DNA from: an uncultured Bacteroidales bacterium
GTDB taxonomy: Bacteria > Bacteroidota > Bacteroidia > Bacteroidales > Paludibacteraceae
NCBI GenBank assembly: GCA_903901975.1
Contig: CAIUTB010000128.1
Coordinates: 1-41,130, forward strand
Reading direction: 5' to 3'
Length of the DNA stretch: 41,130 bases
Part shown: positions 18,444 through 36,486 of the stretch, one piece after another
How the letters are laid out: every line of letters starts with the position of its first letter
Position numbering within the stretch: position 1 is the first letter of the stretch
Notes under the pieces: generated by a model
Seen by the model: only the letters and a program-made list of their open reading frames with translations
Databases searched by the model: none
What the model was told of the DNA's origin: nothing
Program-made: the position numbers and the translations under genes

Positions 18444-21400
18444 ATGAAAAGGTTTCTAACACATATTTTTTTGTTAGCTATACTGAGTGGTCTGAGTATC
18501 AATTTTGCATATTCTGGAAGTCCAAACTTATTTTTTTCTACAGAGGCATATTTTGTTAAAAATGATTTATTGCCCGATGCATCATTTAATTCAACTGCAG
18601 ATACAAGTACTGTGAATGGCCAATCCATACTGAAAGTTTGCAGCAATACAACAGCAGAAGTAACCTTTACAAATACTTCAACTACTATTTTAACGAATTC
18701 GAGTTATACCATTGACTGGGGGGATAATTCACTCCCATTTTCATCTTCAAGTTGGGTTAAGCTGAGTCATAATTATAATATTGGATTTTGGACAATGACT
18801 TATACCGTTAAAGGCAATAAAGGTGCAGTTGTTATTAAAAAAATCAATATGTATGTTGGTTCAAATCCTGCAGTCTCTTTAGGAAGTCCTGGTAATACCG
18901 ATAATTGTAGTAATGTTTCACTTACATTTCCCATCACCGGTACTGAAAATAATCCACCGGGAACTACTTATACTGTAACTTTTAATGATGGAACAACTCC
19001 CCAGACTTTTACACATCCTGCTCCATCAGAGATTACGCACACCTTTATCAAAAGTTCATGTGGAATGACTAGTTACAATGGCACTATTCCTTATTACAAC
19101 TCATTTTCAGCAAGCATAATAGCTTCTAACGTATGTGGTGTCACTGCTGTTAATGTGGTACCGATTTATATTTCTACTTCACCAATAGTCGACTTTTCTT
19201 TGCAAAAGACAGTGGTTTCAACGAATACTTCAGTAAACCTTACAAATACAACATCTGGATATGTAAATGTTGGCGCTAACTGCTCGATTGTACCAAAAAT
19301 TGTATGGGTAATTACCCCTTCTACAGGGTTTACGTTAAAAAGCGGTTCGCTCGGAAATGATTTCGGACAGGATAATTCAAATCTTTGGATAAATGGAAGC
19401 GATGTCATCCTGCCGATATTCAACTCTCCAGGAATATACACTATCAAATTACGAGTGGATACAAAACGATGTGGAAATGACCAAATTGAGAAAACAATTT
19501 GTGTGGAATCTCCACTTGATCCACAGTTTTCACTTGATGTAAGTGCAGGCTGTTCTCCGGTTGCGGTGAATGCAATTAATCAAACCGATTTATCCAAAAC
19601 CTGCAACTCTAGTACATTATGGGATGTTACTTATTCGCCTGATAACTGTGGAAGTTCACCTACCGAATGGAGTTTTTCCAAAGGCACTACTAAGCAATCG
19701 AATAACCCCTCATTCAGCTTTGTTACTCCCGGCATTTATAAAATTAAGCTGAGTATGACCAACAGTAGCGGAACAACAATGAAAGAACAAACAGTTGTTG
19801 TAAAAAAACGACCAACTGCAACTATTGATCCTATTTCTGATTTTTGTGGAACAGCTTCATTCATACCTAAAGCAACTATAAACAACTGTACTTTCGAAAC
19901 CGGAACACTGACTTATTCATGGAGTTTTGAAGGTGGATATCCTTCAACTTCAAATAAGCTTGATCAGGGAACCATCGTATATAATTCTCCGGGAGTTTAC
20001 AAAGTTATATTAACTGTAACGAACGAATGTGGTTCAGTAACTTCCAGTAGTAATGAATTTACGGTTAATGCTTTACCATATATAAATGATATTTCAAATC
20101 AACTTAAAAACACTCAACAGCTATCAGATGCAATCACGTTTAGTGGAAGCAATCAAACCATTTACAACTGGACTAATGACAATTCACAGATTGGTCTTGC
20201 TGCTTCCGGAACAGGCAATATTGGTACATTTAATGTTCAGAATCCCACTAATTCGGTTATTAAAGCATATATCACTGTTACACCCAAAAATAATGTAACA
20301 AATTGTGTTGGAGTAGCTAAAACATTTAGTATTACAGTTAATCCAGCGGGCGATTTATACCAACCTCTAAATCAGGTTGTGACAAATGGAGGAAGTACAA
20401 CTCAGGTTTTATTTACAACAGCTAATTCAGGTGGCACAACTACTTATCAATGGACAAATGACAGACCTGAAATTGGACTTGATGCTTCTGGTTATGGCAA
20501 TATACATTCATTTACTGCCATCAATAATTCAAATTCACCTATTGTTGCGACAGTTACGGTAACTCCGTCCTTTGGAAATGGAGGTTTAATTTCGACAGGT
20601 GCTTCAAAATCATTCAATATTACGGTAATTCCAACAGCCAACATGAAACAACCTTCCAATGTTGAAATTTGTAATGGCGTTACTACTTTCGATATACTAT
20701 TTTCTTCGTTTATTGAAGGAGATATGAAATATAACTGGACAAACGATAACAAAACTATCGGACTGCCAGAATCGGGTGAAGGTACTATCAAAGGTTTTAA
20801 AGCCTTAAATACAGATACCATTACGAAGATAGCAACTATTTCGGTTACTCCGGTTTATACTTTTGCCGAAGTGAGTACTACTGGATTTACTCAGAAATTT
20901 ACGATATCAGTGAATCCGGCAGCTGTAATAACTAATCAACCACAATCGAGTTATATTTGTCGCGGAGGTAAGATAGTTCCGTTGAAAGTTGCTTATGTTT
21001 ATGGAGTTGGTAAACCTTCCTTTCAATGGTTCTCAAATACTTCAAACTCAACTTTTAACGGGTCAATTATTGTAGGTGCAACTTCAGATACATATAATCC
21101 TAGTTCAGACGCTGCGGGAATAACTTATTACTATTGTGTAATAAGCTTACCAAAAGGAGTTTGTTCAAGTATTGCTTCCGATGTTGCTACTGTAGCTGTA
21201 AACGATGCGGCTGTAATAACAGTGAATCCAGCCCGGTTGCAAAATATATGTGTTGGAGGAACTGTTGAAAGTCCGTTGAAAGTAGAATTTAATGGAGGCT
21301 CCGGAACTCCAACATATCAATGGTATTCGAATACTTCCGACTCTAAAGTTGGAGCAAAATCAATTTTAGGCGCAACTAGTGCAACATACACACCTTCGAT

Positions 21401-24400
21401 ATTTACTAAAACCGGACACTATTATTATTTTGAGGAAATATCTATGACCGGTGACGGTTGTGGTTCAGCATCCAGCGATATAGCTGAAATTAACGTTGCT
21501 TCCGATCCGGTTGTTATAAATCAGCCACTTTCAAATCAAACAATTTGTCAGGGAACTGTTGCTGCTGATTTGTCGGTTCGGGCTAGTGGAGGATTAGGTA
21601 ATTATAAATACCAATGGTACGAAAACACAGTAAATGATAATTCTACAGGAAAAGCCATTTTAGGGGCAATAAGCAATATCTTAACTCCTTCAACAGATTT
21701 GACTGGAACCATGTATTACTATTGCCTGATTACACAGGAGAATGGTTTGAATTGTGCTGTTACAAGTTCTACAGGTAAAGTAATTGTAAATCATATTCCG
21801 GTAATTACGAAGAATCCGGTTTCTAATTCGCTTTGTTTGGGTGATAAACCAGATACATTGCATGTTTCATATACTTATGGAGTTGGACAGCCTACTTTTC
21901 AATGGTTTTCGAATACAATTAATTCAAATACTAATGGAGGAATTATTGTCAATGCAACAAGTTCTGTCTATTATCCTATTGCTGACGTAATTAGTAAAAT
22001 ATATTATTATTGCGAACTCAGTTTTGCAACAGGTGGAATTCCAAAACTTGTTTCCGATGTCGCATTTGTCTCTGTAAATCCGATTGCTGCAATATCAAAA
22101 CAGAATACAGTTATTTGTAGTGGAACTTCATTTTTTGTTTTACCTGACTCGCAAAATGGTGACATAGTTCCCGAAAATACAAGCTATACATGGTCAACTC
22201 CGCAACTAAATCCAGCAAATTCCGTAAATGGAGCAAATCTTCAATCAGTTCCAATCGCTGAAATATCTCAGAAACTTTATAATCTGACCGATAGTATAGC
22301 TACTGTAACTTATATTGTTACACCGGTAACAGGTTCATGTGTGGGCGAAAACTTCATCTTGTCAGCCAAGGTTTACCCTATGATTAAACCGAATGCTGTT
22401 GTAACTAATATTTCGTGTCATGGAGCTAAGAATGGTTCTATTCATACTAAAATAAGTGGTGGTTTAGCTTTTAAAAATGTTCAAAAATACAATGTATCCT
22501 GGATAGGTCCAAACGGATTTAGCTCACAGGAAAATGATATTGCAGGTCTGATTCCCGGCGATTACACGATAACAATTACCGATGCAGGCGGCTGTCCGGT
22601 TTCATACATTTATAGCATTAGTGAGCCCTATGAGTTGACTATTAATACTGATTCAAGAAGGGACATCAATTGTTTTAAAAGTGAAAATGGTCAAATTGAA
22701 GTTACTGTAAGTGGTGGAACTCCTCCTTACAATTATTATTGGACAAAGGATGGTTTGACTTTTGCCAATACTGAAGATATCTCCAATCTTGATCAGGGAG
22801 TTTATTCATTATTAGTTACCGATGCCAATGGATGTGGTATTAAGACAGCATCCTTTGTAATTTATGAGCCTCCAGCTTTACATATTTCTTTGCAAAATCA
22901 ACAAAATAATTTGTGTTTTGGTGACTCAATAGGTTCTGTTTCAATCAATGTTAATGGAGGTACCCCTTTTGAATTGAGTTCAGTAGTCATAGAATATAAT
23001 TATTTTTGGTCTGGTCCTAACGGGTTTACGAGCAAAAAAAAGAATTTATCTAATTTATCTGCTGGTAAATACCAGCTCACTGTTACTGATGCAAATGCCT
23101 GTAGTCAAACACTCGTTCTTGAAATTACACAACCAGAGGAATTGAAAGTTATAGTTGTGACTAAACCAATGACTTGCTATCAGGCAAACGATGCTTCCAT
23201 TTTATTAGATATTACGGGTGGTTTGAAACCTTATATTGTGAAATGGGATAATTTGGGTAGTGGTATTTTTCAGGAAAATCTTAATTCGGGTGATTATATT
23301 GCCACTATCATTGATGCAAATAACTGTCAGAAAGCAATTAAAGTAAATATTCAGGATGCAAATTTTTCAATAAATCCGGTTATCAAAAATGTTTCATGTT
23401 TTGGAGCGCATGATGGCAGTATAAACCTGAATATAACAGGAGGCTTAAATCCAGTTACATTAATTTGGGATGACAATTTAAATGCTGGAAATCAACGAAA
23501 TAAACTAGGACCTGGCATCTATAGCGTTTCCATACGCGATGGTGCTCCTTGTAATATCCGTGAAACATTTATGATTTCAGAACCACAGCAAATCAATATC
23601 ACCGCCAAAATTATTAATGCTTTTCAATGTGATAACCCCAATAGCGGTTTTGTTGATTTGACTGTAACAGGAGGAACCCCCCCCTATAGCTATGAGTGGT
23701 CAGATGGAAGCCATTCTGAAGATTTGAGTAATATTCCAGCCGGAAAATACTCAGTCATTGTAACGGATTCAAAAGCTTGTACTCAAACAACTCAATTTGA
23801 AATTATCCGTCAGGATCCATTATCTGTTTCATTGAATTCTCAGAATGTAATGAACTTTAGTTTCAATAAACTGGCTAAACGTTTCACTGCGAATATCTCG
23901 GGAGGTTTTGCTCCTTACCACTTGCATTGGAATAAGGGAATTGTAGAGGGTAAAAACAATGAAATTATGGAAACCTCCCAAAGTACCATTGTTGACCTTC
24001 AGGTGACAGATAGCATTGGCTGTACATTAGATTATTCATTTAATGTTGTTGTGGCAGATGTTGGGATTTCGTATGATGCGGTTGATTGCAGTAAATCCAG
24101 ATATCAATTTAGTTCTATGTCTAGTTCATTCGAAGATAATAATTATAGTTATTTCTGGGGTTTCGGTGACGGAGAATCATCTAATGCCAAAAATCCTGTT
24201 CACAATTATACCCGTAATGGAGAATTTCAGGTACAGTTAGTAATTTCAAATGGAATATTATCCAGCAGTTTTCAAACAATGGTGGTTGTAAATCTTGTAA
24301 ATATACTATCGCTCGATCGGGCTGCGAAATTTTGTTTCGGCGATTCAGTAGTAATATCCGCTAGGGGTGCCCATTCATACAAATGGAGCAACGGTTCTGT

Positions 24401-24992
24401 AGATAATAAAATCAGCATTAAAGAAGTAGGTCAATACAGTGTTATCGGAACATCATTGTTGGGTTGTAATGATACTCTTAAATTTAACGCAACTACTTAT
24501 GATTTAATGAGCTATTCCATTTTTACTGAAAGTGAGGAAAAAATTACTGAGGATTTGGAAGTTCCTTTTTGGAGCGAATATGTTCCATATTCCACATATC
24601 ACTGGGTTTTTGGTGACGGAACAACCGATGATGGTAATAGAGTTACCCATAAATTCAAAATCAGTCAACTTGGATACTACGATGTTAGGTTAACAGCTAC
24701 TAATCCAAATGGTTGTCACGAATATGCCAGCAAACGTGTATGGGTGAAAACTCCGATTGAAATGCCGAATACATTCACTCCAAACGGTGATGGAATCAAT
24801 GATTTACTCTTAAAAGGTTGGCATGTTAAAATATATAATAGAAATGGAATAGTTTTGTATGATGGGAATGAGGGTTGGAATGGAACATATAATGGTCAGC
24901 AGGTATCACCGGGTGTTTATTACTATTTAATTAATTATCCTACTGCCACAGGAATTAAAACAGAATCAGGATATGTTCGGGTTGTTAGATAA
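18444..24992 (+). CDS. Giant T9SS-secreted adhesin with PKD, Ig-like and SprB repeats (2182 residues)
   Basis: Residues 1-24 are a signal peptide. PKD-like modules follow (near 65-125, 410-455 and 490-541), then three tandem PKD-like units with the signature WTND..IGL..SG.G.I (around 575, 670 and 765). Next come four Ig-like units of about 95 residues (roughly 829-1212), each with a QWF/YSNT-like core and a TYYYC-like strand. A further PKD-like unit follows (1213-1313), then seven SprB-type repeats (about 1315-1872) with the motif GG(T/L)xPYxxxW...L..G.Y.(V/I).(V/I)TDA.GC. Two classical PKD domains (WGFGDGE near 1890, WVFGDGT near 2050) precede the C-terminal type B T9SS sorting domain (about 2105-2182), which starts PNTFTPNGDGINDLL and ends YVRVVR. 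It should cross the outer membrane by type IX secretion and act as a surface adhesin. The adjacent PorP/SprF protein is its likely partner. Confidence 0.9.
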   Translation: MKRFLTHIFLLAILSGLSINFAYSGSPNLFFSTEAYFVKNDLLPDASFNSTADTSTVNGQSILKVCSNTTAEVTFTNTSTTILTNSSYTIDWGDNSLPFSSSSWVKLSHNYNIGFWTMTYTVKGNKGAVVIKKINMYVGSNPAVSLGSPGNTDNCSNVSLTFPITGTENNPPGTTYTVTFNDGTTPQTFTHPAPSEITHTFIKSSCGMTSYNGTIPYYNSFSASIIASNVCGVTAVNVVPIYISTSPIVDFSLQKTVVSTNTSVNLTNTTSGYVNVGANCSIVPKIVWVITPSTGFTLKSGSLGNDFGQDNSNLWINGSDVILPIFNSPGIYTIKLRVDTKRCGNDQIEKTICVESPLDPQFSLDVSAGCSPVAVNAINQTDLSKTCNSSTLWDVTYSPDNCGSSPTEWSFSKGTTKQSNNPSFSFVTPGIYKIKLSMTNSSGTTMKEQTVVVKKRPTATIDPISDFCGTASFIPKATINNCTFETGTLTYSWSFEGGYPSTSNKLDQGTIVYNSPGVYKVILTVTNECGSVTSSSNEFTVNALPYINDISNQLKNTQQLSDAITFSGSNQTIYNWTNDNSQIGLAASGTGNIGTFNVQNPTNSVIKAYITVTPKNNVTNCVGVAKTFSITVNPAGDLYQPLNQVVTNGGSTTQVLFTTANSGGTTTYQWTNDRPEIGLDASGYGNIHSFTAINNSNSPIVATVTVTPSFGNGGLISTGASKSFNITVIPTANMKQPSNVEICNGVTTFDILFSSFIEGDMKYNWTNDNKTIGLPESGEGTIKGFKALNTDTITKIATISVTPVYTFAEVSTTGFTQKFTISVNPAAVITNQPQSSYICRGGKIVPLKVAYVYGVGKPSFQWFSNTSNSTFNGSIIVGATSDTYNPSSDAAGITYYYCVISLPKGVCSSIASDVATVAVNDAAVITVNPARLQNICVGGTVESPLKVEFNGGSGTPTYQWYSNTSDSKVGAKSILGATSATYTPSIFTKTGHYYYFEEISMTGDGCGSASSDIAEINVASDPVVINQPLSNQTICQGTVAADLSVRASGGLGNYKYQWYENTVNDNSTGKAILGAISNILTPSTDLTGTMYYYCLITQENGLNCAVTSSTGKVIVNHIPVITKNPVSNSLCLGDKPDTLHVSYTYGVGQPTFQWFSNTINSNTNGGIIVNATSSVYYPIADVISKIYYYCELSFATGGIPKLVSDVAFVSVNPIAAISKQNTVICSGTSFFVLPDSQNGDIVPENTSYTWSTPQLNPANSVNGANLQSVPIAEISQKLYNLTDSIATVTYIVTPVTGSCVGENFILSAKVYPMIKPNAVVTNISCHGAKNGSIHTKISGGLAFKNVQKYNVSWIGPNGFSSQENDIAGLIPGDYTITITDAGGCPVSYIYSISEPYELTINTDSRRDINCFKSENGQIEVTVSGGTPPYNYYWTKDGLTFANTEDISNLDQGVYSLLVTDANGCGIKTASFVIYEPPALHISLQNQQNNLCFGDSIGSVSINVNGGTPFELSSVVIEYNYFWSGPNGFTSKKKNLSNLSAGKYQLTVTDANACSQTLVLEITQPEELKVIVVTKPMTCYQANDASILLDITGGLKPYIVKWDNLGSGIFQENLNSGDYIATIIDANNCQKAIKVNIQDANFSINPVIKNVSCFGAHDGSINLNITGGLNPVTLIWDDNLNAGNQRNKLGPGIYSVSIRDGAPCNIRETFMISEPQQINITAKIINAFQCDNPNSGFVDLTVTGGTPPYSYEWSDGSHSEDLSNIPAGKYSVIVTDSKACTQTTQFEIIRQDPLSVSLNSQNVMNFSFNKLAKRFTANISGGFAPYHLHWNKGIVEGKNNEIMETSQSTIVDLQVTDSIGCTLDYSFNVVVADVGISYDAVDCSKSRYQFSSMSSSFEDNNYSYFWGFGDGESSNAKNPVHNYTRNGEFQVQLVISNGILSSSFQTMVVVNLVNILSLDRAAKFCFGDSVVISARGAHSYKWSNGSVDNKISIKEVGQYSVIGTSLLGCNDTLKFNATTYDLMSYSIFTESEEKITEDLEVPFWSEYVPYSTYHWVFGDGTTDDGNRVTHKFKISQLGYYDVRLTATNPNGCHEYASKRVWVKTPIEMPNTFTPNGDGINDLLLKGWHVKIYNRNGIVLYDGNEGWNGTYNGQQVSPGVYYYLINYPTATGIKTESGYVRVVR

Positions 24993-25008
24993 AAAAAAGA
25001 ATATTTCT

Positions 25009-25911
25009 ATGAAACGTGCATTTACAATATTATCGTTCATACTATATTGGTTGTTGGGCAATGCGCAATACAATATACGAATAAATAATATTCTGGATAA
25101 TTCATATTATATAAATCCGGCAGCGATTAATGATGAATATCAAGCCATCTTCAGTATTTCAGCCCGGAAACAATGGATTGGATTTCCGGGTGCACCAAGT
25201 ACCTATTATGCAACTGGCACAATGTTTCTACCTAAAAGCAATGCTCAGTTTGGAGTGAATGTGTATTCTGATAAAGTCGGGTATAATACTATTTCAAATA
25301 TCTCAGCATCTTATGCATATCAAATAAATCTCAATAAAGAATGGCAGCTTAATCTTGGGCTGGGAGCAAGTTACCAATGCTTGTCATACGACCGAAATCA
25401 GCTAATTGCAATGACATTAGATGATCCGGCAATATATAATAACTTGCTGCAGCAAACAAATTATAATTGCGATTTGGGTTTTGAATTAAAAAATGAATTA
25501 TGGAGAATTGGAGTTTCCGGTCAGAATTTGTTGTCCGCTTTGGTTAAAGAAAATAATATTCTGTCAAATGCGAATTATGCTTATGTTGTTTATCGGAAAA
25601 AGGAAGATCAGCTAATAAATCTGCAATATGGATTAGACGCAATTCAGTATGGCAGTATTGTCCAAATGGAACTTAGCCTTACTTCATTTTTTAAATTTTA
25701 CGACGAAGCCGATTTATTCCATGTAGGTGTATTTTACCGGACTCAAAGCGAAATGGGAGTAGTATTAGGATACAACCTTTCTGAGAGCTTAAATCTGGCT
25801 TACAGCTATGATTTCAACGTAAGTGGAATAAGCCAGAATACTGTTGGATCACATGAGTTAATCGTTTCGTATAAGCTTAATAAGGTTAATTTTAAACCAT
25901 ATAGGTATTAA
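25009..25911 (+). CDS. PorP/SprF family type IX secretion system membrane protein
   Basis: The chosen ATG at 25009 gives 300 residues and a clean signal peptide (MKRAFTILSFILYWLLGNAQ). An in-frame ATG at 24973 overlaps the adhesin gene and would add 12 charged residues, so I reject it. The mature protein has the PorP/SprF hallmarks: SYYINPAAIN near the N-terminus, a KQWIGFPGAPSTYYA segment, then repeated beta-barrel strands (FGVNVYSDKVGYNT, LNLGLGASYQCLSYD) and a final FNVSGISQNTVGSHELIVSYKL region. Members of this family are outer membrane proteins that assist secretion or surface attachment of one type B-tailed T9SS cargo, such as SprF for SprB. It begins 16 bases after the adhesin stop, so the two are co-transcribed. 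Confidence 0.92.
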   Translation: MKRAFTILSFILYWLLGNAQYNIRINNILDNSYYINPAAINDEYQAIFSISARKQWIGFPGAPSTYYATGTMFLPKSNAQFGVNVYSDKVGYNTISNISASYAYQINLNKEWQLNLGLGASYQCLSYDRNQLIAMTLDDPAIYNNLLQQTNYNCDLGFELKNELWRIGVSGQNLLSALVKENNILSNANYAYVVYRKKEDQLINLQYGLDAIQYGSIVQMELSLTSFFKFYDEADLFHVGVFYRTQSEMGVVLGYNLSESLNLAYSYDFNVSGISQNTVGSHELIVSYKLNKVNFKPYRY

Positions 25912-31352: not shown

Positions 31353-32981
31353 ATGAAACGTAACTTTCTATTTGTTTTCTTTGCTGTAATTTCAGCTTCA
31401 ATTTCAGCCGCCGAGCCTGCCCAGGGTATTGCTTATTACAAAGCGGGCTTTCCTCAGGTTGCCAAACCTCTTTTGTTGAAAGAGTATGCTACTGATACTT
31501 TAACCCGTTCAGAAACTTGTTTTTATCTTGGAAATATCTATTTTGGTGAAAATAAGGTTGACTCAGCTGAAATATATTTTAAAAAGGGCTTAATTGGGAA
31601 ACAGGTCAATGTGTTGAATACTGTTGGTTTAGCTATGTTGAAAATGAAATCGAACCTTAAAGATGCTGATGCAGATATTATTGCAGTATTGAAGCTTCCT
31701 GCAAGTAGGAAGAATCCAGATTACTCAATTGCTGCTGCCAATGCGTATTTATTCAACGGACTAATAGAACAGGCTACTAACTATATGGAAAAAGCCAAGA
31801 GTATAAAGCTTAAATATTCCGCTTTAGCTGTATTGGCTGGCGATATTGAATTGGCCAAAAAAGATGTAGGAAAGGCATGCGGTAATTATGATATGGCCAT
31901 ATTGTATGACGAAAATTGCAAAGAAGCATATATCAAATATGCTCGTGCTTATAAAAATGTAAACACGCCCCTTGCTATTGAAATGTTGAACAGGTTGAAA
32001 CAAAAAGAACCTGCATTTTTGTTGGCTGACAAGGAGTTAGCTGATATTTATTATGCAAATAACGATTTTGATAAAGCTGCTCAATTATATGCCAATTATC
32101 TCAAATCAGGAAATTCATCAGTATCTGATTTGACTAAATATGCCATGACTATCTTTTTGAACAAAGACTATACAAAATCGTTGGAAATTTCGAAAATGGG
32201 ATTGCAAAAAGATTCACATAACCCCGCATTTAATCGATTGGCTATGTATAATAATGTAGCTTTGGAAAAATATGACGATGCAATTAAGTATGCAGATTTG
32301 TTTTTCAATAAATCAGATAATCCTGATATTTCATATTATGATTACACCTATTATGGTCAGGCTTTACGTTCAACAAAACAATATGATTTAGCAATCGAAC
32401 AATTTAAGAAAGCACTCAAACTTGATTCAACACAAATTGGCTTCTGGAAAGATATTTCTGATATGTATGGTGAAAAACCTGATTATCCAAATCAAATCTC
32501 GAATTATATTATTTATATGAATGCCTTAGCTCCAGAGAAGAAAACTGCTGATATTATTGTTACTTTAGGAAAGATGTATTACAGTTTAGGCAATGCGGAA
32601 ACTTCGACTGCTGATTTAAAGAAAAGCTCATTGTTGAAGGCTGATAGTATTTTTGGACTGGTAGCATCTCTAGAACCAACGGCTTATAGAGGAAATATGT
32701 GGAGAGCACGTACAAATTTTGCATTAGATCCCGAATCAACAATCGGATTAGCAAAACCTTTTTACGAACAAACTGTAACTTTGGTTGAAGCTAAAGCTGA
32801 TGTAAGATATAATCCGGTAATTTTGGAGTGTTCAAGGTATCTAGGATATTATTATTTTTTAAAAAAAGATTACGTTCAATCTAAAATTTATTGGAACAAA
32901 ATATTGTTAATTGATTCTAAAAATGAATTAGCTCTGAAGGCTATTGAAGGTATTGACAAAGCATTGAAAGGGAAAAAATAA
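31353..32981 (+). CDS. Exported tetratricopeptide repeat protein of the tonB operon
   Basis: The product has 542 residues. A signal peptide (about 1-20, ending SISAA) is followed by an array of TPR helices over most of the length, with the repeating A/G-x-Y and LA-x-x-Y pattern (for example YLGNIYFGENKVDSAEIYFKKGL, LADIYYANNDFDKAAQLYANYL, YYGQALRSTKQYDLAIEQFKKALKLDS). It should be a periplasmic scaffold. It is the last gene of the run that starts with exbB, so its partner may be the PstS-like lipoprotein or TonB itself. A terminator follows at 33003-33039. Its enzymatic function is none that I can see. Confidence 0.82.
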   Translation: MKRNFLFVFFAVISASISAAEPAQGIAYYKAGFPQVAKPLLLKEYATDTLTRSETCFYLGNIYFGENKVDSAEIYFKKGLIGKQVNVLNTVGLAMLKMKSNLKDADADIIAVLKLPASRKNPDYSIAAANAYLFNGLIEQATNYMEKAKSIKLKYSALAVLAGDIELAKKDVGKACGNYDMAILYDENCKEAYIKYARAYKNVNTPLAIEMLNRLKQKEPAFLLADKELADIYYANNDFDKAAQLYANYLKSGNSSVSDLTKYAMTIFLNKDYTKSLEISKMGLQKDSHNPAFNRLAMYNNVALEKYDDAIKYADLFFNKSDNPDISYYDYTYYGQALRSTKQYDLAIEQFKKALKLDSTQIGFWKDISDMYGEKPDYPNQISNYIIYMNALAPEKKTADIIVTLGKMYYSLGNAETSTADLKKSSLLKADSIFGLVASLEPTAYRGNMWRARTNFALDPESTIGLAKPFYEQTVTLVEAKADVRYNPVILECSRYLGYYYFLKKDYVQSKIYWNKILLIDSKNELALKAIEGIDKALKGKK

Positions 32982-33002
32982 TAGCTATTTAAAACAAATG
33001 AG

Positions 33003-33039
33003 GCTGTCTCAATTTTTATTTTGAGTCAGCTTTATTTTT
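33003..33039 (+). terminator. Terminator of the exbB-to-TPR operon
   Basis: GCTGTCTCAA (33003-33012) pairs with TTGAGTCAGC (33021-33030) with one T-T mismatch and an 8-nt loop. It is followed by TTTATTTTT. Confidence 0.8.
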
Positions 33040-33186: not shown

Positions 33187-33194
33187 TATTTTTG
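33187..33194 (+). promoter_or_regulatory. -7 element for the bactofilin/actin-like pair
   Basis: TATTTTTG is a perfect -7 match. No TTTG box is seen about 20 bases upstream. Transcription starting near 33201 would leave a leader of about 140 nt before the ATG at 33343. Confidence 0.4.
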
Positions 33195-33342
33195 TCCATT
33201 CAGTTAATATTCAATTAATGTAGGATACTACAAGACTTTCGGATTTAGTTCTACACTGACATTGGAAATTATATAAATAATATTACATCTGTAAATAGAA
33301 TGACATTAAAAAATGTTATTTTGTTTCTAAAAAACATTTAAT

Positions 33343-33921
33343 ATGGATGTTTTAAGAATTAAGAGAAAAGGAGAGAAGTCAGTTTTGAATTTTAAAAAAT
33401 CATTATCAATAGACAATAAAAATAAGGATTTAACTAATATCGTAGAAAGAGTTAATCAGTTTCAAGCAGGATCCCAAATTACCGGACAGTTAGTAAGTCA
33501 GAATAGTTGTTATTTTAATGGAGTGATTAATGGAAATATTGAAATCCATAATAAGCTGGTATTAGGTGAAAACTCAGAAGTAAATGGTGATGTGTTTGCT
33601 AAGAATTTACTTATAAAAGGTAAAGTACATGGAAATATCACGGTTGAAAACAAAATTATTTTAAGTAGTAGTGCGAGTGTTAAATCAAAAAATTTATACA
33701 CCAACCTTTTAGAAGTTGAAAATGGAGCTGTTTTAAATATTAACAACCTTGTTATGCAAGCTTCTTCAAAAAATGCTGCTTTGTTTCCAAAACTGCCTGA
33801 TTTTTCAAATAATGCTAATAAGCCAATTAATGAAAGTAAACCGATAAATTTATCGCGCGAAATTAACTCCAATACTAATGATGATGACTCATTCTTCTTT
33901 AAAATTTTTCAAAACCAATAA
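33343..33921 (+). CDS. Bactofilin-like polymer-forming cytoskeletal protein
   Basis: The product has 192 residues. The central region (about 43-138) shows the bactofilin pattern: short beta-helical turns with small residues and glycine every five to seven residues (GSQITGQLVSQNSCYFNGVI, NGNIEIHNKLVLGENSEV, NGDVFAKNLLIKGKVHGNI). Bactofilins polymerise without nucleotide into filaments at the membrane and scaffold cell-wall enzymes or polarity proteins. The basic N-terminal tail (RIKRKGEK) may bind the membrane. The C-terminal tail (about 140-192) is polar and then ends in the aromatic segment SFFFKIFQNQ. The actin-like gene starts 27 bases downstream and is probably co-transcribed, suggesting that the two cytoskeletal proteins work together. 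The family call is secure; the function in this organism is inferred. Confidence 0.87.
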   Translation: MDVLRIKRKGEKSVLNFKKSLSIDNKNKDLTNIVERVNQFQAGSQITGQLVSQNSCYFNGVINGNIEIHNKLVLGENSEVNGDVFAKNLLIKGKVHGNITVENKIILSSSASVKSKNLYTNLLEVENGAVLNINNLVMQASSKNAALFPKLPDFSNNANKPINESKPINLSREINSNTNDDDSFFFKIFQNQ

Positions 33922-33948: not shown

Positions 33949-34986
33949 ATGGAAAAGTCTTTTATTATCCCCAGTGTTTTCGAAGAAAACTCAATGCTTT
34001 TTTCTAAAGTTGCAGACAATTTTATTGATGGTATTAGAATAGTACATTTTAAGGAAAAAGATTATATTATTGGAAACCTGGCATTGAAAGAAGGAGGAGC
34101 ACCACATAAGCTACTCAATAGTTCTGCAGAAGATATTGATTATCAATTATTAGCATTGTCTTCCATTCTTATTGCTTCAATGGGGAGCTTTCTGAAACTA
34201 GAAGTTACTATTGGTTTTCCAAATACAACCTATCAGTTGTACAAGAAAAATGCTGAAAAATTCTTCACAGGAAGTCACACCATTTTCTTTGATGGAAGAA
34301 CATTTGGAAAAGATGAGATAGAAAAAGTTGAAATTAGTGTTGATCAGGTAAACGTAATCACTGAAATTGAAGGATGTAGCATTGCAGTAAGAAACACATT
34401 CAACGAAAAGGAGGATTTCTTTATTGCAAGTTTAGGTTTTGGTACTTTTGAAACTGCACTTTCTACCAACAGTGGTATTGTTCACCGTACAGCTTATAGT
34501 ACCAAAGGTGTTTCCTATGCCGTTAATTTGCTTGAAAATGAATTACAGAAAGATTATTATTTGAATATGCTTACCGATCAGCAGATTGAAAGAGCATTTC
34601 AACGTGGTTTAATCGTTTCGAACCGTAAGAAAATTGATATTACTGATCTTCGTGCGAAAGCATTGAAAAGTTATTATACCGAAGTAATTTCACCTGCAAT
34701 CCGTAAGAAATTCAACGATGAAGATTATGTGAATACCAAGAAAATATATCTTGCCGGTGGTGGAGCTATGTATCCTGAATTGGTTGAACTCTTCAAAAAA
34801 GAGTTTCAAGATGTTTTAGAAGTGTTGGTTTATCCTGAACCTTTTATGTGCGCTGCAAAGGGATATTGTCTGAATTCATTAGATAAAGCAAGAATGAATG
34901 ATTCAGAAAAACAGGATAAAATTGCTTACGTAGGCATTGATTTGGGTAACTCAAATACAGCAATCGTAATTAATACAATTGATTAA
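33949..34986 (+). CDS. Actin-like (ParM-type) ATPase, apparently circularly permuted
   Basis: The product has 345 residues. By eye it follows ParM: IIPSVFEEN (6-14) matches the strand after the ParM phosphate-1 loop; IDYQLLALSSILIASMG...VTIGFPNTTY (63-95) matches the IA/IB interface segment; FFIASLGFGTFETALS (157-172) sits at phosphate-2; STKGVSYAVNLLENEL (184-199) matches the following helix; and KIYLAGGGAMYPELVELF (265-282) is the adenosine loop. The phosphate-1 strand-loop-strand is missing from the N-terminus and instead occurs at the C-terminal end, YVGIDLGNSNTAIVI (327-341), after a 15-residue linker. The Asp expected in phosphate-2 (DLGGTT in ParM) is Ser161 (SLGFGT), which may slow or abolish hydrolysis. 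It should be a cytosolic filament protein. It is preceded by bactofilin and followed by a terminator. The permutation is an inference from alignment by eye, though the motif order is seen directly. Confidence 0.78.
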   Translation: MEKSFIIPSVFEENSMLFSKVADNFIDGIRIVHFKEKDYIIGNLALKEGGAPHKLLNSSAEDIDYQLLALSSILIASMGSFLKLEVTIGFPNTTYQLYKKNAEKFFTGSHTIFFDGRTFGKDEIEKVEISVDQVNVITEIEGCSIAVRNTFNEKEDFFIASLGFGTFETALSTNSGIVHRTAYSTKGVSYAVNLLENELQKDYYLNMLTDQQIERAFQRGLIVSNRKKIDITDLRAKALKSYYTEVISPAIRKKFNDEDYVNTKKIYLAGGGAMYPELVELFKKEFQDVLEVLVYPEPFMCAAKGYCLNSLDKARMNDSEKQDKIAYVGIDLGNSNTAIVINTID

Positions 34987-35010
34987 AGAAATTTCATTGC
35001 AATAATAAAA

Positions 35011-35039
35011 AAAGCGGATAAGAATTATCCGCTTTTTTT
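35011..35039 (+). terminator. Terminator of the bactofilin/actin-like pair
   Basis: A perfect 11-bp stem (AAAGCGGATAA, 35011-35021, with 35025-35035) has a GAA loop and is followed by a T-run (seven T in all, 35033-35039). It isolates the actin-like gene from the sigma-54 activator gene. Confidence 0.92.
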
Positions 35040-35190: not shown

Positions 35191-36486
35191 ATGCAACTAT
35201 ATGAAATTCAAGCAGTAAAACAGCGTTTCGGAATAATCGGAACTTCAGAATTGCTGAATAGGGCAATTGACATTGCAGTGCAAGTAGCACCAACAGATTT
35301 ATCTGTATTAATAACCGGTGAAAGTGGTGTTGGAAAAGAAAATTTCCCTCAAATTATTCATTTCTACAGTCACCGAAAACATGGACCTTATATTGCCGTA
35401 AACTGTGGCGCTATACCTGAAGGAACTATTGATTCCGAGCTTTTTGGTCACGAAAAAGGTTCATTCACCGGTGCTACTGCTGATCGGAAAGGTTATTTTG
35501 AAGTAGCCGATGGTGGTACTATTTTTTTGGATGAAGTGGGAGAGTTACCACTTTCCACCCAAGTTAGGTTGTTACGTGTTTTGGAAGCCGGTGAATTCAT
35601 TAAGGTGGGCTCGTCAAAGACTCAGAAAACGAATGTAAGAGTTGTAGCAGCTACTAATCTTAATATGTCCCAGGCAACACGTGAAGGCAAGTTTCGTGAA
35701 GATTTATTTTACCGTTTAAACACAGTTCCTATTGCTGTACCCGCTTTACGTGAACGGAATGAAGATATTGTGTTGTTGTTTAGAAAATTTGCATCTGATT
35801 TTGCTGAAAAATACCGAATGCCCGCAGTTAAGCTGACCGAAGATGCTAAACAGTTATTGTCGAATTTCTATTGGAATGGAAATGTTCGCCAATTAAAAAA
35901 TATTACAGAACAGATTTCGGTGATTGAACAACAACGTGAAATTTCGAGTCAAATTTTAAAGAATTATCTTCCTAAGGATGAGATTGAACGATTGCCTGCT
36001 CTACTTTCGAAATCATTTAGTGATAGCAAGATATTTAATAATGAACGCGAAATTCTTTATCAGGTTCTTTTTGATATGAAAAAAGATATGAATGATCTGA
36101 AAAAGTTAGTGCACGATATTATGAATAATCAATCTGTTGATATTCAGGGTTCTGACATTAATTTTCAGTCTGCTTTTTTAAATCAAAATGATAATTATTT
36201 TAGTGGTTCAACTAATGGGGTTGATATTATTTCGGATAAACCTGACCGTGAAAATGTACAAATTGCAAACAGTGCTGATAAAGCTACAGACTTTCAGGAT
36301 GCTGATGAATACCATGTGATGGAATCCAATAAAAAACCCACCACATTAGCCGAAATGGAAAAACAAATGATTTCTGATTCACTTGAAAAATACAGGGGCA
36401 AAAAGAAATTAGCTGCTAAAGAATTGGCAGTTTCCGAAAGAACATTGTATCGTAAAATTAAAGAATATGGTCTTGATGATCTATAG
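35191..36486 (+). CDS. Sigma-54-dependent transcriptional activator without receiver domain
   Basis: The product has 431 residues. It begins almost directly with the AAA+ domain: Walker A GESGVGKE (43-50), the sigma-54 contact loop GSFTGA (90-95, GAFTGA in most family members), Walker B TIFLDEVG (110-117), a RVVAATN sensor and a FREDLFYRLN arginine-finger region. A long polar linker (about 255-395) is followed by a Fis-type helix-turn-helix near the C-terminus (KKLAAKELAVSERTLYRKIKEYGL). There is no N-terminal receiver or GAF domain, so control must come through the linker, a partner protein or expression level. It precedes lptE and secG, as in other Bacteroidales, which suggests envelope stress or secretion genes among its targets. 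The Ser in GSFTGA is compatible with sigma-54 contact. Confidence 0.9.
   Translation: MQLYEIQAVKQRFGIIGTSELLNRAIDIAVQVAPTDLSVLITGESGVGKENFPQIIHFYSHRKHGPYIAVNCGAIPEGTIDSELFGHEKGSFTGATADRKGYFEVADGGTIFLDEVGELPLSTQVRLLRVLEAGEFIKVGSSKTQKTNVRVVAATNLNMSQATREGKFREDLFYRLNTVPIAVPALRERNEDIVLLFRKFASDFAEKYRMPAVKLTEDAKQLLSNFYWNGNVRQLKNITEQISVIEQQREISSQILKNYLPKDEIERLPALLSKSFSDSKIFNNEREILYQVLFDMKKDMNDLKKLVHDIMNNQSVDIQGSDINFQSAFLNQNDNYFSGSTNGVDIISDKPDRENVQIANSADKATDFQDADEYHVMESNKKPTTLAEMEKQMISDSLEKYRGKKKLAAKELAVSERTLYRKIKEYGLDDL

Follow-up and report, generated by a model that had tools for sequence, protein, structure and literature searches.

Evidence for natural circular permutation in a bacterial actin-like protein and for its recurrent bactofilin partner in Bacteroidota

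Can an actin-like protein carry the first element of its nucleotide-binding site at the end of its chain? The fold of actins is also that of Hsp70s and sugar kinases, and we know of no case within it in which the phosphate-1 hairpin does not lie ahead of the remaining chain core. The question is raised by a gene on a contig of an uncultured Bacteroidales bacterium, analyzed here over a stretch of 41,130 nucleotides (the window; features in Table 1). A sequence-only reading of the window had proposed that this gene encodes a circular permutation of ParM, and the observations on which it drew were confirmed: the sole phosphate-1 motif, GIDLGNSNTAIV, lies at residues 329 to 340 of 345; the N terminus opens with FIIPSV, at the segment after phosphate-1; and the reading frame is intact, its ATG 27 bases after the stop codon of a bactofilin gene and its end followed by a terminator-like hairpin recognized by eye. 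In Pfam, residues 3 to 139 match positions 17 to 145 of the 148 positions of the ALP_N profile (PF17989; E = 4.6e-11), with 43.6 bits against a curated cutoff of 26.3, and residues 182 to 274 match MreB-like_C (PF21522). Because the ALP_N match begins at profile position 17, the first 16 positions, which hold phosphate-1, have no N-terminal counterpart; with that motif near the other end of the chain, the protein is classed as a permuted ALP_N variant and not as an ordinary member. It is present in a single copy in its genome. Identification as an ordinary MreB was rejected, given that the genome encodes a separate, full-length MreB elsewhere and that the MreB_Mbl profile scores 18.1 bits, below its cutoff of 27.

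Table 1. Positions of the genes, motifs, and candidate signals of the bactofilin-actin locus within the window
Feature	Coordinates	Strand	Basis or remark
Inverted repeat resembling a terminator, 3' of the upstream TPR gene	33000..33030	+	Overlapped by the 19-base match to the G017 empty site
TATTTTTGTCC, possible promoter of the two-gene unit	33187..33197	+	Fits the -7 consensus TAnnTTTG
Bactofilin gene, 192 aa, partner upstream of the actin gene, same strand	33343..33921	+	PF04519, E 1.3e-19
Gene of the actin-like protein read as a circular permutant, 345 aa	33949..34986	+	ORF, Pfam, conservation, AlphaFold, hhalign
FIIPSV, residues 5-10, strand after phosphate-1 in ALP_N, here the N terminus	33961..33978	+	Profile position 17 onward
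E139, paired with the Glu of MreB HEPMAAA	34363..34365	+	48/48; MreB alignment
Phosphate-2 region SLGFGTFE, residues 161-168, Ser in place of the MreB Asp	34429..34452	+	Aligned to MreB DLGGGTSE
GGGA, residues 270-273, presumed adenosine-motif glycines	34756..34767	+	Conservation, 48 relatives
Last helix before the linker, residues 298-317	34840..34899	+	DSSP on the AlphaFold model
C-terminal beta hairpin with the relocated phosphate-1, residues 325-343 (predicted)	34921..34977	+	Model, alignment, conservation
Phosphate-1 motif GIDLGNSNTAIV, residues 329-340	34933-34968	+	Sole phosphate-1 motif of the actin-like protein
Intrinsic terminator-like hairpin and T-run, 3' of the actin gene	35007..35039	+	Seen by eye

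The order of the segments was examined by moving the tail segment to the front of the chain and rescoring the protein against ALP_N, with a shuffled segment as the control. The score of the window protein rose from 43.6 bits in native order to 54.9, against 42.4 for one shuffle, and that of a Salinibacter relative (L047) from 50.8 to 60.0, against 51.1 for one shuffle; a third protein (L005), rescored without a shuffled control, rose from 54.3 to 64.7. In all three, the move shifted the start of the match from profile position 17 to position 1, with a gain of 9 to 11 bits, and the rearranged window protein covered positions 1 to 145 (E = 1.5e-14). Global hhalign against Bacteroidales MreB, with a profile made from 17 of 25 MreB loci by a selection pattern that required a particular N-terminal motif, gave the native order a score of 28.2 and the moved order one of 40.3, with 20 shuffled controls ranging from 2.0 to 21.5. 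The moved order aligned end to end (residues 1 to 345 with MreB 3 to 338); in the native order, residues 314 to 345 were paired with MreB 1 to 28, and the phosphate-1 tail segment alone aligned to MreB 9 to 25. Only the global mode separates the two orders, since local-mode hhalign gives 47.2 for the native order, 47.2 for the moved order, and 47.1 to 47.2 for shuffled controls. A profile search of the PDB with HMMER, in which single stretches score just 2.6 to 8.9 bits, paired profile positions 158 to 206 with MreB 162 to 209, positions 265 to 305 with 290 to 328, and, weakly (2.6 bits), positions 319 to 335 with MreB 13 to 29. The same segments are thus present in rotated order, with one copy of each, as in a circular permutant.

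This arrangement characterizes a family. The C-terminal DxGNSNT-type phosphate-1 is present in 130 of 131 family loci (L001 to L014 and L017 to L133, some of them one gene fetched twice; 98 distinct frames), the lone exception being a fragment at a contig end. A second, N-terminal DxGxxxT in homologs had been named by the sequence-only reading as the observation that would count against it; no phosphate-1-like pattern occurs within the first 150 residues of any of the 130 relatives' frames examined. With the arrangement kept in 130 of 131 loci, it is no accident of assembly, and the earlier assertion that the gene is not a misassembled end stands; an artefact of assembly or gene calling was rejected for this reason. 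In a 48-row alignment of relatives, S9, E139, G163, G165, E168, G270, G271, G329, D331, G333, and N334 are invariant, and G272 and T337 are each conserved in 47 rows.

A whole-protein search of 295 genomes of the order, for which the motif was not a bait, found a copy in 15, the window's genome included; in 14 of them the copy is intact, and all 14 intact copies, counting that of the window, have a C-terminal phosphate-1. The copy of the fifteenth genome (G065) is frame-broken (L015 and L016), and its pieces still contain the C-terminal motif. An ALP_N search of 296 genomes of the phylum, likewise without the motif as bait, gave 11 matches in 10 genomes, a figure that is not a census, as the search at first look missed the window's own genome; all 11 begin at profile positions 16 to 21 and carry the C-terminal motif. 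The family profile, likewise not dependent on the motif alone, found a copy in a minority of 395 phylum genomes (24), with 26 places matched, 1 of them a 141-base contig-end fragment without the tail. A scan of a collection of 84,980 species returned 111 relatives, 80 of which were kept; the C-terminal motif is present in 80 of 80 partly by construction, because phosphate-1 was one of the two baits. The kept relatives belong to Bacteroidota, broadly defined; Salinibacter, Balneolaceae, Ignavibacteriaceae, and Melioribacteraceae are among them. Genera with named strains that carry the gene are Cyclobacterium, Odoribacter, Sphingobacterium, and Parapedobacter, and the carriers include Cyclobacterium lianum, Salinibacter altiplanensis, Odoribacter lunatus, and Sphingobacterium alkalisoli. 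No nonpermuted close relative was found in these searches, which covered phyla outside Bacteroidota only through the motif-baited scan of 84,980 species.

AlphaFold2, given the 48-row alignment, predicts a confident actin fold for the window protein (pLDDT 92.4, pTM 0.91). In the model, the first strand spans residues 2 to 8, the last long helix 298 to 317, and a C-terminal hairpin 325 to 332 and 336 to 343. By blocks, pLDDT is 72 over residues 311 to 320, the linker and the least certain part, 82 over 321 to 330, 94 over 331 to 340, and 83 over 341 to 345. The AlphaFold model of the Cyclobacterium lianum protein (pLDDT 93.1, pTM 0.92) has the same hairpin, at 321 to 326 and 330 to 336. The best Foldseek matches of the window model are Ta0583 (2fsj; E = 3.6e-15) and pCBH ParM, with query TM scores of 0.65 to 0.73; the first eleven rows include Ta0583, pCBH ParM, pSK41 ParM, Dh-cParM1, and CorM, and MreB is also matched. 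Foldseek is a sequential aligner, so that the position of the tail hairpin in the phosphate-1 place of the fold is a prediction of the model. Sequence, profile scores with their shuffled controls, and a fold predicted with confidence all point to natural circular permutation of an actin-like protein. This conclusion is close to certain, about as firm as one drawn from sequence and modeling can be; the function of the protein is what we infer from them.

The window protein is read as a permutant of a bacterial or archaeal actin-like protein of the ALP_N type, with the phosphate-1 strand-loop-strand, which opens other actins, relocated to the end of the chain. There it is joined to the last helix through a linker that, between the conserved S310 and G329, measures 11 to 32 residues in the 48 relatives, and the hairpin would fold back into domain IA at the position it usually holds, so that each chain has one complete ATP site. 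In the alignment to MreB, E139 falls opposite the Glu of HEPMAAA and S161 opposite the phosphate-2 Asp, a position held by Ser in 45, Gly in 2, and Cys in 1 of the 48 relatives. The glycines of GGGA we take to be the adenosine motif. From actin biochemistry, loss of the phosphate-2 Asp should slow or change hydrolysis. Since the Glu of the MreB HEP type is kept and the Asp is mostly replaced by Ser, the protein is expected to bind ATP with slow or altered hydrolysis and to form fairly stable filaments. Judged from the sequence and the model, binding of ATP and polymerization into an ATP-dependent filament are reasonably likely.

The bactofilin gene served the sequence-only reading merely as a landmark for the start of the actin gene; its position was correct, but its role was missed, as it is a recurrent partner. 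In 40 of the 80 kept loci, the actin is directly adjoined by a same-strand bactofilin, which lies upstream in 15 and downstream in 25. Neighbor clustering accounts for 39 of these (14 upstream and 25 downstream); the remaining one (L018, upstream) rests on tblastn and its reading frame. In one further locus (L089), bactofilin is one gene away. Both flanks are in view and no bactofilin lies next door in 29 loci, and 10 have too little flank to judge. All 10 representative bactofilin neighbors examined are PF04519 proteins in Pfam. In a tree of the 48 rows, the upstream and downstream arrangements are mostly separate: the upstream order is found in the window's clade and also in Parapedobacter indicus, which is placed beside downstream rows without full support, and the downstream order in Cyclobacteriaceae, Roseivirgaceae, Salinibacter, L066, one Balneolaceae row, and one Ignavibacteriaceae row. 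The presence of both gene orders on the tree indicates that the partners have been kept, or brought together, in either order. The link with bactofilin is strong, not universal, and a functional connection between the two proteins is very likely.

A terminal Trp is found in 23 of the 25 downstream-paired bactofilins. These 23 are far from independent, as 14 come from Cyclobacterium and its close kin; 4 come from the Roseivirga group, 3 from the Salinibacter group, and 1 each from Balneolaceae and Ignavibacteriaceae. Apart from the Trp, the downstream tails vary among groups (L034, L047, L050, L084, L094, and others). Neither the 14 clustered upstream-paired bactofilins nor the window's own have a terminal Trp; several tails of the upstream type end in a common FLN-AI-QLP-DD-SSL-aromatic pattern. 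Fifty-nine bactofilins, drawn from a phylum sample and from 12 genomes that carry the actin, were compared: the Trp end is present in 9 of the 11 that have the actin close by versus 1 of 48 without it, and the Fisher p of 4.2e-8 is indicative at most because the sequences are related. The comparison is post hoc, since the 12 genomes were picked after the pattern was noticed and the paired side consists largely of the same genes; its fresh part is the unpaired side, that is, the other bactofilins of those genomes and the phylum sample. Not all listed matches yielded loci, and of the 60 loci taken, one short locus that did not fit the frame rule (L215) was dropped. A first pass with a cruder frame rule gave 8 of 9 paired versus 1 of 51 unpaired. 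The paired copies without Trp lie one gene from the actin (L199) and about 1.2 kb beyond it (L249). A 426-residue bactofilin frame ending in Trp (L222/L253) has no permuted actin within the 6.9 kb read; its genome, that of L048, also holds a paired copy at another place. The C-terminal peptide of ParR binds ParM, and it is on the analogy with this peptide that we tentatively propose contact between the actin and bactofilin through the bactofilin tail.

Against this background, other explanations of the locus can be weighed. A truncation artefact, in which an N-terminal phosphate-1 was lost or miscalled and the C-terminal DxGNSNT resembles it by chance, has in its favor the abrupt N terminus, just 7 residues ahead of Pro8, but is scarcely credible: the tail motif is common to all but one of the family loci and conserved across the 48 rows, the N-terminal motif is found in none, and the ALP_N match improves when the tail is moved and not when the segment is shuffled. 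A domain-swapped permutant, in which the filament is built by strand exchange as the hairpin of one subunit fills the phosphate-1 slot of its neighbor, would suit a hairpin that sits at the free chain end behind a variable linker of 11 to 32 residues; it is nevertheless quite improbable, as the shortest linkers have only 11 residues and the single-chain model places the hairpin well (pLDDT 82, 94, and 83 over residues 321 to 345), a monomer prediction being compatible with a swap as well. The permutation might itself be functional and not neutral: with half of the ATP pocket on a tethered C-terminal hairpin, the binding of nucleotide would be coupled to docking of the strand, in cis or in the adjacent subunit, and to capture of the tail of bactofilin, and assembly of the actin would be gated by a nucleotide-free scaffold polymer, which we regard as improbable.

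It is very unlikely that the protein is a DNA segregation actin of the ParM type with a partner other than bactofilin, to which its adjacency would be incidental. Its fold is closest to Ta0583 and ParM, and 29 of 80 loci with both flanks in view have no adjacent bactofilin; but no match was found among 72,556 plasmid or 50,697 phage records, none of the 47 stretches of viral contigs that fit a pattern encodes a relative, bactofilin recurs on either side of the actin in distant clades, and the ten neighbors examined in bactofilin-free loci belong to different, unrelated families, one of them to none. A plasmid or phage family was rejected on the same record searches. A ParM operon was set aside on the immediate neighbors, which in the window are bactofilin and a sigma-54 activator, with no ParR gene next door. 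Many actin-fold proteins do not form filaments, and a nonpolymerizing ATPase that controls bactofilin assembly as a monomeric switch or regulator would be in keeping with the replacement of the phosphate-2 Asp in 48 of 48 relatives, which may make for an unusual cycle. This reading is unlikely, with a chance still worth bearing in mind; against it stand best structural matches that include filament-forming actin-like proteins (6izr and 9rmi, by their entry titles), as the other best matches presumably are. The explanation preferred here, a natural ALP_N-type permutant that works with bactofilin, is probable as a whole. In the two-part cytoskeleton that these proteins would form, bactofilin, a polymer that needs no nucleotide, would anchor the actin or nucleate it, possibly via the bactofilin C-terminal tail. 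Bactofilin filaments are described as nonpolar and nucleotide independent in a paper on bactofilin membrane binding (PMC12448750).

Comparison with known systems broadens the earlier proposal. The permutation stands on motif order, profiles, and fold; the attribution to ParM is too narrow, because the protein matches the ALP_N family and no plasmid record, and its fold is matched best by both Ta0583 and pCBH ParM. With ALP_N proteins it shares the ALP_N domain and the predicted actin fold, but it differs from them in its C-terminal phosphate-1, the Ser in place of the phosphate-2 Asp, and the bactofilin neighbor. The archaeal actin homolog Ta0583 and pCBH ParM (6izr and 6ixw) differ from the window protein in chain order and share 12 to 16% identity with it. 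The nearest solved sequence by profile is Dh-cParM1 (8x1i; E = 8.3e-4; eighth in Foldseek), although that match covers only part of the chain, family positions 36 to 144. CorM of Anabaena (9rmi; rank 11 in Foldseek) is likewise an actin-like filament protein, but its partner, by the entry title, is CorR and not bactofilin. The partner protein has an ordinary bactofilin domain (PF04519); what sets these bactofilins apart from others is the adjoining actin gene and, in most downstream-type members, the terminal Trp. In titles and the beginnings of abstracts among the papers listed, a scope that leaves out most subscription papers and all preprints, no description was found of a natural permuted bacterial actin, in agreement with the sequence-only reading, or of its pairing with bactofilin; for the permuted actin, this statement excludes a review (PMC7203096) that was matched on the words "circularly permuted" and MreB. 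A natural permutant spread across a phylum would mean that the chain can start anew within the catalytic sheet and that both the fold and its ATP site withstand this, a tolerance that bears on folding order and on the dependence of filament contacts on the termini. The data suggest that the rearranged actin works with a bactofilin scaffold; as a candidate two-part cytoskeleton of Bacteroidota, the pair can be put to the test in named strains.

In the window, the bactofilin-actin pair is a compact unit of two genes between a TPR gene that ends at position 32981 and a sigma-54 activator gene that starts at position 35191. The -7 element of Bacteroidota has the consensus TAnnTTTG, and TATTTTTGTCC is, by its sequence, a possible promoter of the pair. 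In a congener (G017), the TPR gene and the activator are 212 bases apart and the pair is absent; the gap shares a 19-base stretch with the TPR-side hairpin region of the window and a 16-base stretch with the sequence preceding the activator, each with one mismatch. The TPR gene adjoins the activator in 9 of 29 same-genus loci and is unmatched in the other 20, and none of the 29 gave a match to bactofilin or the actin at the site. In congeners, the TPR, activator, and LptE genes that flank the pair occur together, and a search of 35 other genomes of the genus yielded no permuted actin. Given the empty site in congeners and the absence of the actin from the 35 genomes, it is probable that this lineage acquired the pair as one unit or that the other lineages lost it. 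Elsewhere in the window, positions 18444 to 25911 encode a 2182-aa protein that has SprB and PKD repeats and carries a type IX secretion signal of the CHU_C kind; a PorP/SprF gene comes next.

Individual members of the family show further variation. Two copies of the permuted actin are present in each of two genomes, G476 (L116 and L132) and G524 (L117 and L133). The copy at L092, beside a bactofilin gene, is truncated or broken at its 5' end: its match starts at query residue 84, and approximately the first 83 residues are not in frame. L014 and L086, the same protein, extend about 130 residues beyond phosphate-1; this tail is rich in Lys, Glu, and His and ends in EPDFS. In several relatives that lack an adjacent bactofilin, the tail is short and its last residues are FEPTFS, FKPAFS, or KFK, which may be a binding peptide peculiar to them.
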